Shown here: piece after piece, positions 16,553 to 20,530 of the stretch
Layout: each line of letters begins with the position of its first letter
Position numbering within the stretch: position 1 is the stretch's first letter
From: Candidatus Legionella polyplacis
GTDB lineage: Bacteria > Pseudomonadota > Gammaproteobacteria > Legionellales > Legionellaceae
DNA: 64,000 nucleotides
Direction of reading: 5' to 3'
Assembly: GCF_037013735.1 (NCBI RefSeq)
Contig: NZ_CP135136.1
Location: 310,001 to 374,000, forward strand
The notes under the pieces: model-generated
The model's input: the letters and a program-made list of their open reading frames with translations, nothing else
Database searches by the model: none
Told to the model about the DNA's origin: nothing
Program-made: the position numbers and the translations under genes

Positions 16553-16900
16553 TCAAATATTAATTTTCTGAATTTTTTTCCAAACATCATTTAATATATA
16601 AATGACACACTGATTACTTAAGCCAACTATCTTTGCATTTACTAAAATAACTATATCTAAATTATTAATAAAAGTAATTAACCTAAAAGTTTCTTTTATA
16701 AGTCTTTTAATATTATTTCTATTACAAGACTTTTTTATTATTCTTTTAGATAAAACTATTCCAAGTCTACTGGTATCCCCTAATAAATTCTTCCAAAACA
16801 ATAAAATAAAACAAAAAACTACCATTCTTTCTGAATTCCTAAAAACCAATTCAAAATCTTTGGTCTTAAATATTCTTCTACTCTTACCAAAAAAATACAT
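16553..16900 (-). CDS. rnpA: Ribonuclease P protein component
   Basis: Protein cofactor of RNase P, which trims tRNA 5' leaders. The RNR signature is present as SCNRNNIKRLIKETFR, preceded by RLGIVLSKRIIKK. At 115 residues its length is normal. It lies between rpmH and yidC, as in most bacteria. The RNase P RNA gene itself is not in this window. Confidence 0.94.
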   Translation of the reverse strand: MYFFGKSRRIFKTKDFELVFRNSERMVVFCFILLFWKNLLGDTSRLGIVLSKRIIKKSCNRNNIKRLIKETFRLITFINNLDIVILVNAKIVGLSNQCVIYILNDVWKKIQKINI

Positions 16901-17210: not shown

Positions 17211-17329
17211 TTATGCACAACTTATTCACAATATCAAAAATTATTCACAACAATAAATATAAAATATTATATATGTGTATTTATAAATACACATATATAA
17301 AAATATATTTTTGTTCATAGTTATACACA
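17211..17329 (+). promoter_or_regulatory. Cluster of four DnaA-box-like sites
   Basis: Four 9-mers in the same orientation close to the TTATNCACA consensus: TTATGCACA (17211-17219), TTATTCACA (17222-17230), TTATTCACA (17241-17249) and TTATACACA (17321-17329). The first two start 11 bases apart, roughly one helical turn. I see no more such sites in the rest of the spacer. The C in each is notable in DNA that otherwise hardly contains C. Confidence 0.7.
17267..17300. repeat. 34-bp perfect palindrome inside oriC
   Basis: Arms 17267-17283 and 17284-17300 are exact reverse complements with no loop, centred on GTGTATTTATAAATACAC. It includes G and C in matching positions (GTGT/ACAC), so it is not just an A/T run. 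It sits between the third and fourth DnaA-box-like sites. A binding site for a dimeric regulator or a cruciform is possible. Confidence 0.75.
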
Positions 17330-17588: not shown

Positions 17589-18015
17589 TGACTCTAAATA
17601 AAAGTAATAAAAAACCAAAAATATGTAATAAAATAAAAGAAACTTAGAATTAAACATCTAATTTCATAAAAAATTGCTTAATTTTTATTAAAAAATAAGA
17701 AAAATATTTATTCATACAAAAATATGAAAAAAGAATAAAAACAAATATATTTATACTTTAAAAGTATTTGGCAAAATAATAAATTTTAAATTTTTTTGTA
17801 AAATTTTATTAGAAATAAAATATTTTAATTAACTAATATTATTCAATAATAAAATCTTATTAAGATATAAAATAAACAAAAAATATATAAAATCCATTAA
17901 ATTAAAATTTAGAATTTTTATTAAATAAAATTTTATAAATACCAAAAATCCTAAAAAATTAGATGTTTACAGTAAAAAATTTATATTGAAAAAATTATTC
18001 ATATGCTTTAAAAAA

Positions 18016-19380
18016 ATGTTGAACAATAAAAACCAAAAAAATCTATTAATAATATGGAAAAAATGTCTACTTTCTTTAAGAAAAAATTACCCAAAACAAT
18101 TTAACACATGGATTAAACCAATACAAATAGAAGATAAAAAAAATCATATTAATTTATTGGTACCCAATCAATTTGTAAAAAATGAAATCAAAGAAAATTT
18201 TTTCTCAGAAATAAAAAAAACAATAAAATACTTGAGCAATAACAAAATTAACGTTATCTATTTAAAAATAGGAACTAAAAAAATTAACGATTCTATAAAA
18301 AAAAAAAAATTATTTAAATATAAAAAAAAAATATTTAATTCCTTTAGTTATCTTAATAATTTTAATAAAAAATTTACTTTTACTAACTTTATTGAAGGAA
18401 GTTCCAATTTTCTAGCAAAATCGATAGCTATGAAAGTATCTATGTTACCAGGCAAAAAATATAATCCATTGTTAATCTACGGAAAAACAGGATTAGGTAA
18501 AACTCATTTAATTCATTCCATAGGTAACAAAATACTAAAAAATAATCCTGAATATAAAATATTATATTTACATTCAGAAAATTTTGTATTTAATATGATT
18601 AAATCAATAAAAGAAAAAAGCATTATTGAATTTAAAAACTTTTATAGATCTTTAAATGGATTATTCTTAGAAGATATTCAATTTTTTGCAAACAAAAAAT
18701 ATTCTCAAAATGAATTCTTTCACACTTTTAACACTTTATTAGAACAACAACAACAAGTAGTTTTAACTTCTAATCTTTCTCCCAAAATAATTACTGGGTT
18801 AACAGAACAATTAAAATCAAAATTAAATTACGGTTTAACCGTAAAAATTGAACCACCAAATTTTAATACACGTATCTTAATATTGATTGAAAAAGCAAAA
18901 CAATTAAATATAAATTTACCTAAAAAAGTAATATACTTTATAGCAAATCACATTAATTCTAATGTATTAGAATTAGAAGAAGCACTGAAAAATATTGCTG
19001 AAAATTCTATTTTTACTAAAAAAAAAATAGATATAAAATTAACTAAAAATAGTTTAAGAAATCTTATTACCATAAGAAAGAAATCTGTAGATACTGACAG
19101 TATTAAAAAAGCAGTAATGAAATACTATAATATACAAACAAAAGAATTTTTATCTCAAAAACGATACGCTCATTTAGTAAGATCTAGGCAAATGGCAATA
19201 CTATTAATTAGAAAACTAACAAATCTAAGTTTCAATAATATTAGTACAATTTTTAATAAAAAAAATCATACAACAGCATTGTATTCTTACAAAAAAATGA
19301 GGAAATTAATACAATTAAATAATAATCTTTTAAGAGATTACAAAAAAATACTTGAAATAATATTTTCAAAATATAATTAA
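18016..19380 (+). CDS. dnaA: Chromosomal replication initiator DnaA (diverged AAA+ site)
   Basis: Origin-binding AAA+ ATPase. I take the ATG at 18016 (454 residues, MLNNKNQ); a TTG ten codons earlier is possible. Domain I is recognisable (PKQFNTWIKPIQ). Walker A is intact (GKTGLGKTHL, Lys162), and Walker B is LEDIQF (Glu219-Asp220 instead of Asp-Asp). Box VII reads EQLKSKLNYGL where E. coli has DRLKSRFGWGL, so the positions of R281 and the arginine finger R285 hold Gln265 and Lys269. Sensor II R334 is Leu318 (NVLELEEAL for NVRELEGAL). Domain IV keeps the helix-turn-helix and RSRQMA, but the DHTT signature is NHTT. ATP-dependent switching is probably weakened. It lies seven bases before dnaN. 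Confidence 0.96.
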   Translation: MLNNKNQKNLLIIWKKCLLSLRKNYPKQFNTWIKPIQIEDKKNHINLLVPNQFVKNEIKENFFSEIKKTIKYLSNNKINVIYLKIGTKKINDSIKKKKLFKYKKKIFNSFSYLNNFNKKFTFTNFIEGSSNFLAKSIAMKVSMLPGKKYNPLLIYGKTGLGKTHLIHSIGNKILKNNPEYKILYLHSENFVFNMIKSIKEKSIIEFKNFYRSLNGLFLEDIQFFANKKYSQNEFFHTFNTLLEQQQQVVLTSNLSPKIITGLTEQLKSKLNYGLTVKIEPPNFNTRILILIEKAKQLNINLPKKVIYFIANHINSNVLELEEALKNIAENSIFTKKKIDIKLTKNSLRNLITIRKKSVDTDSIKKAVMKYYNIQTKEFLSQKRYAHLVRSRQMAILLIRKLTNLSFNNISTIFNKKNHTTALYSYKKMRKLIQLNNNLLRDYKKILEIIFSKYN

Positions 19381-19387
19381 CAATTTA

Positions 19388-20530
19388 ATGAAAAAGAAAA
19401 ATATAATTTTTTATATAAAAATATCTAAAAAAACTTTTTTAAATGCTTTATCAATAGTTTTAGGAGCCATAGATAAAAAAAATAATACATTAACAATATT
19501 AGATAATGTTTTAATTGATTCTAAAAAAGATAAAATAGTCTTATCTGCTACAAATTTAGAAATTAAAATTACAACATATATTGTATGTAACAAAAATATG
19601 GAAAATCAAATTAAAATTCCTGGAACAATTACTATTCCAGGAAAAAAATTGTTCCATATATTAAAATTATTGGATTTAAACGATATTCCATCAATTATTG
19701 CAATTAAAAATTCTGCATTAATTAAAACCAATAATAGTAAATTCTTACTCAATACTTTATCTTATAAAAACTATCCAATTAGTGAATTTAAAAATCCAAC
19801 TATTAAAATAATGATAAAATCTTATGATATTGTTAATTTATTTCAATTTACTTATTTTATCATACCAAAAAGTGATTCAAGAATATACTTAAATGGATTA
19901 TTATTAGATTTTACAAAAGGACAAATAACATCAGTTTCTACTGATGGTTACAGAATGGCTATAAAGAAATTCTTTTATGAAAAAATTAATTTTAGTTCCC
20001 AATTTTTATTGCCTAAAAAAGGTGTACAAGAAATACTTAAACTATTGTCTAATACAGAAAATACAGATCTTATTATCTCTGGGAATGAAAATTATTTGCA
20101 ATTTTCCACAAAATTATATAGTATCGAATTAAAACTAATAAAAGCAAAATTTCCTTCATATCAAAAAATCATTCCTACACATCAAGATAAGATTATTCTT
20201 ATAGATCGAGATAAATTTAAACGAGCATTAAAAAGAATTTCAATACTAACTAATGAAAAATCAAAAGCTATTTTATTGCATATAAAACCCTCTGTATTAA
20301 TTTTAACAAGTACTAATAAAGAACAAGAAAATGCTATAGAATTATTAAACGCGGATACAAAAGGAAAAGAAATCAAAATAGGTGTAAATGTAGATTATTT
20401 ATTAGAAATTTTAAACATATTACCAAAAGGATTAGTTAAATTATCAATGCAATCTTCAGATAGTAGTATTTTAATACAAATAAATAATAATAATAACTAT
20501 AAATACATAGTAATGCCTATGAAAATATAG
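19388..20530 (+). CDS. dnaN: DNA polymerase III beta subunit (sliding clamp)
   Basis: Ring-shaped processivity clamp that tethers Pol III to DNA. The call rests on length (380 residues; E. coli 366), on three repeated clamp domains, the conserved SVSTDGYRMA segment in the middle domain, and the C-terminus YIVMPMKI (family MPMRL), which forms part of the partner-binding pocket. A Lys-rich N-terminal stretch adds a few residues. It is co-oriented with dnaA seven bases upstream. recF, which usually follows, is missing. Confidence 0.96.
   Translation: MKKKNIIFYIKISKKTFLNALSIVLGAIDKKNNTLTILDNVLIDSKKDKIVLSATNLEIKITTYIVCNKNMENQIKIPGTITIPGKKLFHILKLLDLNDIPSIIAIKNSALIKTNNSKFLLNTLSYKNYPISEFKNPTIKIMIKSYDIVNLFQFTYFIIPKSDSRIYLNGLLLDFTKGQITSVSTDGYRMAIKKFFYEKINFSSQFLLPKKGVQEILKLLSNTENTDLIISGNENYLQFSTKLYSIELKLIKAKFPSYQKIIPTHQDKIILIDRDKFKRALKRISILTNEKSKAILLHIKPSVLILTSTNKEQENAIELLNADTKGKEIKIGVNVDYLLEILNILPKGLVKLSMQSSDSSILIQINNNNNYKYIVMPMKI

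Follow-up and report, generated by a model that had tools for sequence, protein, structure and literature searches.

Nearly all bacterial DnaA proteins have an arginine finger, sensor I and sensor II, and these elements are held to form the core of initiation control in bacteria. In E. coli DnaA, D269 serves tight nucleotide binding, R285 and R281 mediate ATP recognition between protomers, and R334 acts in hydrolysis. Hda is the activator of ATP hydrolysis by DnaA, and DciA is a helicase loader. Work on E. coli indicates that R285 and R281 are needed for functional domain III contacts, and that R334 is dispensable for initiation complexes and needed for hydrolysis (PMC5742627). E. coli DnaA(R334A) has been described as hyperactive and hydrolysis-deficient (PMC6606810), and Caulobacter DnaA(R357A), which lacks the equivalent of R334, causes over-initiation and is unable to substitute for the wild type (PMC3193534).

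We describe here a DnaA with five replaced switch residues, encoded in a Legionellaceae genome that consists of a single contig of 530,980 bases. The organism, Candidatus Legionella polyplacis, is a louse symbiont, and the window that we analysed is a 64-kb stretch of its genome containing dnaA (Table 1). The protein is identified as a DnaA orthologue by the TIGR00362 equivalog model (427.4 bits against a curated cut-off of 343.9) and carries, in order, the Pfam domains DnaA_N, Bac_DnaA and Bac_DnaA_C, which correspond to domains I, III and IV. DnaA is single, no second copy having been found in the genome, and a TTG at 17986 offers an alternative start. The gene is flanked by the rnpA side on one flank and by dnaN on the other, followed by gyrB and dnaX; Rfam and tRNA scans of the 64-kb window returned no matches. 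In the AlphaFold2 model (mean pLDDT 85.5, with AAA+ blocks mostly around 90), domain III matches DnaA of B. subtilis (8bv3; TM 0.94, 1.5 A) and of T. maritima (2z4r; TM 0.94, 1.3 A), with 8btg also among the structure matches, and the fold is probably intact, models of this type being insensitive to point changes and speaking to fold and not to ATP handling.

Table 1. Features of the dnaA region, in coordinates of the window.
Feature	Position	Strand	Evidence or remark
rnpA side	16553-16900	-	flanks dnaA
oriC-like cluster of four same-strand DnaA boxes TTATNCACA (at 17211, 17222, 17241, 17321)	17211..17329	+	shuffles; sister genome
A+T-rich palindrome between boxes 3 and 4	17268..17299		kept in sister
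sigma-70-like promoter TTGACA-17-GATAAT, probably of dnaA	17560..17588	+	11/12 consensus bases; kept in sister
dnaA, chromosomal replication initiator DnaA, 454 aa from ATG	18016..19380	+	TIGR00362; Pfam domains; AlphaFold2 model
Walker A GKTGLGKT, residues 156-163, retained (K178 = Lys162)	18481..18504	+	alignment; survey
codons 203-347, protein identical in both species, holding all five replaced sites	18622..19056	+	27 synonymous, 0 nonsynonymous codon differences
Walker B Glu219-Asp220 (E. coli D235-D236; D235 replaced by Glu, D236 kept)	18670..18675	+	D235 in 129/129 others
sensor I Asn253 (E. coli D269)	18772..18774	+	D in 127/129 others
box VII Gln265, CAA (E. coli R281)	18808..18810	+	R in 129/129 others
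box VII Lys269, AAA (E. coli arginine finger R285)	18820..18822	+	R in 128/129 others
sensor II Leu318, TTA (E. coli R334)	18967..18969	+	R in 128/129 others
dnaN, sliding clamp, divergence control	19388..20530	+	TIGR00663, 252 bits

Alignment with E. coli K-12 DnaA and with relatives places Gln265, Lys269 and Leu318 at R281, R285 and R334, exactly the residue numbers given in the original prediction, and agrees with it on the Glu-Asp Walker B. Its statements that Walker A and the box-binding residues are retained are likewise borne out (K178 and T179 in the former; R399, R407, H434 and T435 among the latter). The further claim that the DHTT signature of domain IV has become NHTT is correct for this species and fails as a lineage trait, as the sister genome encodes DHTT, and Asn occupies the same site in 11 of 80 DnaAs of other phyla. 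Sensor I, where Asn253 stands for D269, was absent from that prediction. Canonical residues are found in every one of the 27 Legionellaceae relatives checked for the same replacements.

The closest of the genomes sampled, that of the sister species (529,746 bases; DnaA 91% identical), encodes the identical five changes with differing synonymous codons nearby, and the alignments with E. coli K-12 DnaA and with Legionella are ungapped around the five sites; sequencing error and misalignment are ruled out by these two observations. DnaA identity to other members of the family is up to about 46%. We compared the protein with 129 other DnaAs (27 from Legionellaceae, 21 from other gammaproteobacteria, that of E. 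coli and 80 from other phyla), none of which lacks more than two of the five residues. Because the five sites are near-invariant across this set, the losses do not represent chance drift in an unconserved region. Thirty-eight AAA+ positions are conserved at >=97%, and eight of them are lost in this DnaA. All three of the arginines originally named fall among these eight (Fisher P = 0.007), as do all five residues of the extended set, which was defined partly post hoc (P = 1e-4). Only 6 of the 21 arginines that are invariant in Legionellaceae are kept. Tyr stands in place of R245, a residue of the B motif for single-strand binding, at a position that is highly variable in other phyla.

When both genomes were searched with the TIGR03420 profile for Hda, the sole match was DnaA itself, whereas Hda is present in all three free-living Legionellaceae genomes searched with this model. 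The DciA profile (PF05258) has no match in either symbiont genome, and DciA is present in the one free-living Legionellaceae genome searched. DnaB is present, and a search for a loader of the DnaC/DnaI/IstB type returned, besides DnaA, only weakly matching ATPases of other kinds.

Among gammaproteobacterial lineages, a changed switch residue is found in three of four without Hda versus 1 of 18 with Hda (P = 0.01), in a small set in which one of the three Hda-less cases (L128) has a probably broken dnaA. As a general cause, Hda loss is suggestive only, since the 80 DnaAs of other phyla, including phyla without Hda, keep all five residues. Loss of Hda may thus permit the switch residues to change and not by itself be the cause. 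Individual lineages differ in what they retain. In L125 (G457, 1.0-Mb genome), where a search for Hda found none, DnaA is intact and has Cys at R334, which makes it a separate, independent case in which the switch is partly lost. L128 (G204, 1.0-Mb genome) carries D269N, has no Hda, and encodes a domain IV that is unalignable past about E. coli residue 425 in a frameshift-like manner; its congener G311 gave no DnaA match. The divergent DnaA of L137 (G038, 1.7-Mb genome) has D269G and R285F with R281 and R334 kept, and a possible Hda is present there.

E204 and D236 are kept, as are the contacts R227 (AID-1), K243 and L290 (AID-2) and, in domain I, F46, which binds the helicase in E. coli. With Walker A in place, nucleotide may still bind as a structural ligand. 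This retention bears on the possibility that the ATP switch persists by compensation, with Lys269 serving as a lysine finger, other side chains replacing sensors I and II, and assembly remaining ATP-dependent. Such a reading is consistent with the kept Walker A, E204 and D236, with a Lys at the finger position being the mildest change, with the strong constraint on domain III and with a fold predicted to be intact. However, Leu stands at sensor II and Gln at R281, the aligned segments show no adjacent Arg that could take over, the five near-universal residues are altered together, and Hda is absent; we regard compensation of this kind as unlikely. We favour instead, with moderate confidence, a constitutive origin binder in an Hda-less genome: the protein would still initiate replication but would no longer have the ATP/ADP switch.

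Codons 203-347 show 27 synonymous differences between the two species and no amino-acid change, so purifying selection on the altered AAA+ domain is strong and the domain is not decaying. The rest of dnaA contains 65 synonymous and 41 nonsynonymous codon differences (P = 1.4e-5 against codons 203-347), and no part of DnaA is now under tighter constraint than the altered domain. In the two-species comparison, dN/dS is 0.075 for the whole gene, the seventh lowest of 56 ORFs in the window, with omega at ~0.03 in domain III and ~0.2 in domain IV. All five replacements predate the split of the two species, and the new residues have not changed since. Before that split, DnaA diverged more than DnaN: identity to Legionellaceae is 58% in domain III (79% for E. 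coli DnaA) and 34% in domain IV (80% for E. coli DnaA), and that of DnaN is 40% (38% for E. coli DnaN). These sequence comparisons suggest that this DnaA changed rapidly and was then frozen, and that it is not in ongoing decay. Domain IV (19069-19377) is the fastest-evolving part, with 21 of 103 residues differing between the two species while the box contacts and the boxes are kept; its counterpart in free-living relatives is well conserved, at 88% identity.

These data also bear on the two alternatives of the original prediction, of which the constitutive, ATP-insensitive binder fits the loss of the switch residues and Hda with box contacts and boxes kept, whereas a gene on its way to loss is disfavoured by the low dN/dS and by the contrast between silent and amino-acid changes. 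Under the latter alternative, dnaA would be disappearing as it has in Blochmannia, Wigglesworthia and Carsonella, and replication would no longer need DnaA. Several symbionts have lost dnaA (PMC4389277, PMC7198777), DnaA here is far more diverged than DnaN on the stem branch, domain IV evolves faster than the rest, and DciA and Hda are both gone. Yet the frame is intact in two species, the boxes are conserved along with codons 203-347, and the decay-like case, L128, differs in that its domain IV no longer aligns. We therefore consider impending loss improbable, and a constitutive origin binder remains the reading that we prefer.

AT-biased drift alone is an insufficient explanation of the changes, as other AAA+ proteins keep their motifs and DnaN is no more diverged from Legionellaceae than E. 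coli DnaN is. Five such proteins encoded alongside this DnaA (FtsH, ClpX, HslU, Lon and DnaX) retain the arginine-finger or sensor II motifs that were sought in them by pattern (DnaX was named by family model, the other four by motif and length), and AT bias alone thus does not erase such motifs. AT bias is nevertheless likely to have supplied the mutations, in keeping with the small share of Legionellaceae-invariant arginines that is kept.

The region upstream of dnaA retains the features of an origin. Four TTATNCACA boxes occur within 119 bases of the intergenic region, compared with 0-2 in 5000 dinucleotide shuffles, and this cluster beside dnaA is the only one seen in the 64-kb window. The sister has the same four box sites; the two species differ in the degenerate base 5 at three of them and in the last base of one. 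The sign of the GC skew switches at dnaA, between 18 and 22 kb. Recognition of the boxes beside dnaA is probably still selected, because the boxes, the palindrome and the promoter-like site are kept and the GC skew switches here; over the whole upstream region, the number of promoter-like sites is not above that in shuffles. The approximately 430 bases between the promoter-like site and the dnaA start (17589-18015) are mostly poorly conserved between the species; this stretch may be a long leader, or it may contain a second promoter that escaped notice. That the protein has been repurposed as a DNA-binding regulator or nucleoid protein and is no longer an initiator would accord with kept DNA-binding residues alongside a lost ATP cycle, and with Caulobacter DnaA doubling as a transcription factor (PMC3193534), but we judge it very unlikely given that no box cluster was seen in the window other than the one adjoining dnaA at the GC skew sign change and that F46 of domain I, which binds helicase in E. 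coli, is kept.

For the constitutive origin binder that we prefer, the following course of events can be proposed. Loss of Hda, in a symbiont that exerts little control over its cell cycle, would first have relaxed selection for ATP hydrolysis and sensing. The residues themselves could then have fallen to AT-biased mutation, a single G-to-A step being able to turn R into K or Q and D into N. The domain may subsequently have been fixed as an ATP-independent assembly module acting through R227, K243 and L290, with box-guided cooperativity at the four-box origin helping assembly. From the residue pattern we predict that regulated hydrolysis is lacking, that nucleotide is bound more weakly and that ATP does not gate assembly. 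DnaA would bind the boxes at the oriC adjoining its own gene and start replication with no ATP/ADP switching. Such an always-on origin binder would imply that over-initiation is tolerated, or is limited by the supply of DnaA. We infer the ATP independence, the order of events and the continued initiation by this DnaA from sequence.

Several points weigh against this explanation. Phyla that lack Hda nevertheless keep the five residues, so the loss of Hda is not enough on its own to explain the changes. Functional DnaA complexes of E. coli depend on R281 and R285, and the loss of both with function kept therefore calls for a compensation, for which no candidate was identified. No DciA or other dedicated loader that would account for helicase loading was found. 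The fuller proposal, that an initiator could assemble at and open oriC without an ATP/ADP switch, have DnaB loaded without DciA or a dedicated loader, and be selectively maintained in this state, is one that we advance only tentatively.

No report of such a DnaA was found in the literature searched, coverage of which was partial. A conserved natural DnaA that has lost its arginine finger and the residues of both sensors, and whose genome encodes neither Hda nor DciA, offers a natural test of what the ATP cycle is needed for, that is, which of its parts are required to start replication and which are merely regulatory.

Several known systems can be compared with this DnaA. It shares with the DnaAs of E. 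coli and free-living Legionellaceae the four-domain order, Walker A, R227, K243, L290 and the box-contact residues, along with the gene order rnpA-rpmH-dnaA-dnaN and DnaA boxes adjoining the gene, but differs from them in the replacement of D235, D269, R281, R285 and R334 and in the absence of Hda; Legionella moreover has DciA, which this genome lacks. Similarly, E. coli DnaA(R334A) and Caulobacter DnaA(R357A) lack the sensor II arginine, with failure of ATP hydrolysis predicted here as well, whereas in those mutants sensor II alone is changed, the arginine finger still reads ATP and the protein is hyperactive. The reduced gammaproteobacteria L125 (R334C) and L128 (D269N) resemble this lineage in having no Hda found and a switch residue lost, but each has lost just one of the five, and the gene of L128 is pseudogene-like. 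Buchnera and other small dnaA-bearing symbionts were not found among the genomes sampled, and so are not among the controls. This DnaA could represent an intermediate state toward symbiont life without dnaA. The symbionts that lack the gene (Blochmannia of Camponotus, Wigglesworthia and Carsonella) likewise have a reduced genome and presumably relaxed initiation control; here, in contrast, dnaA is intact, under purifying selection and accompanied by a conserved box cluster.
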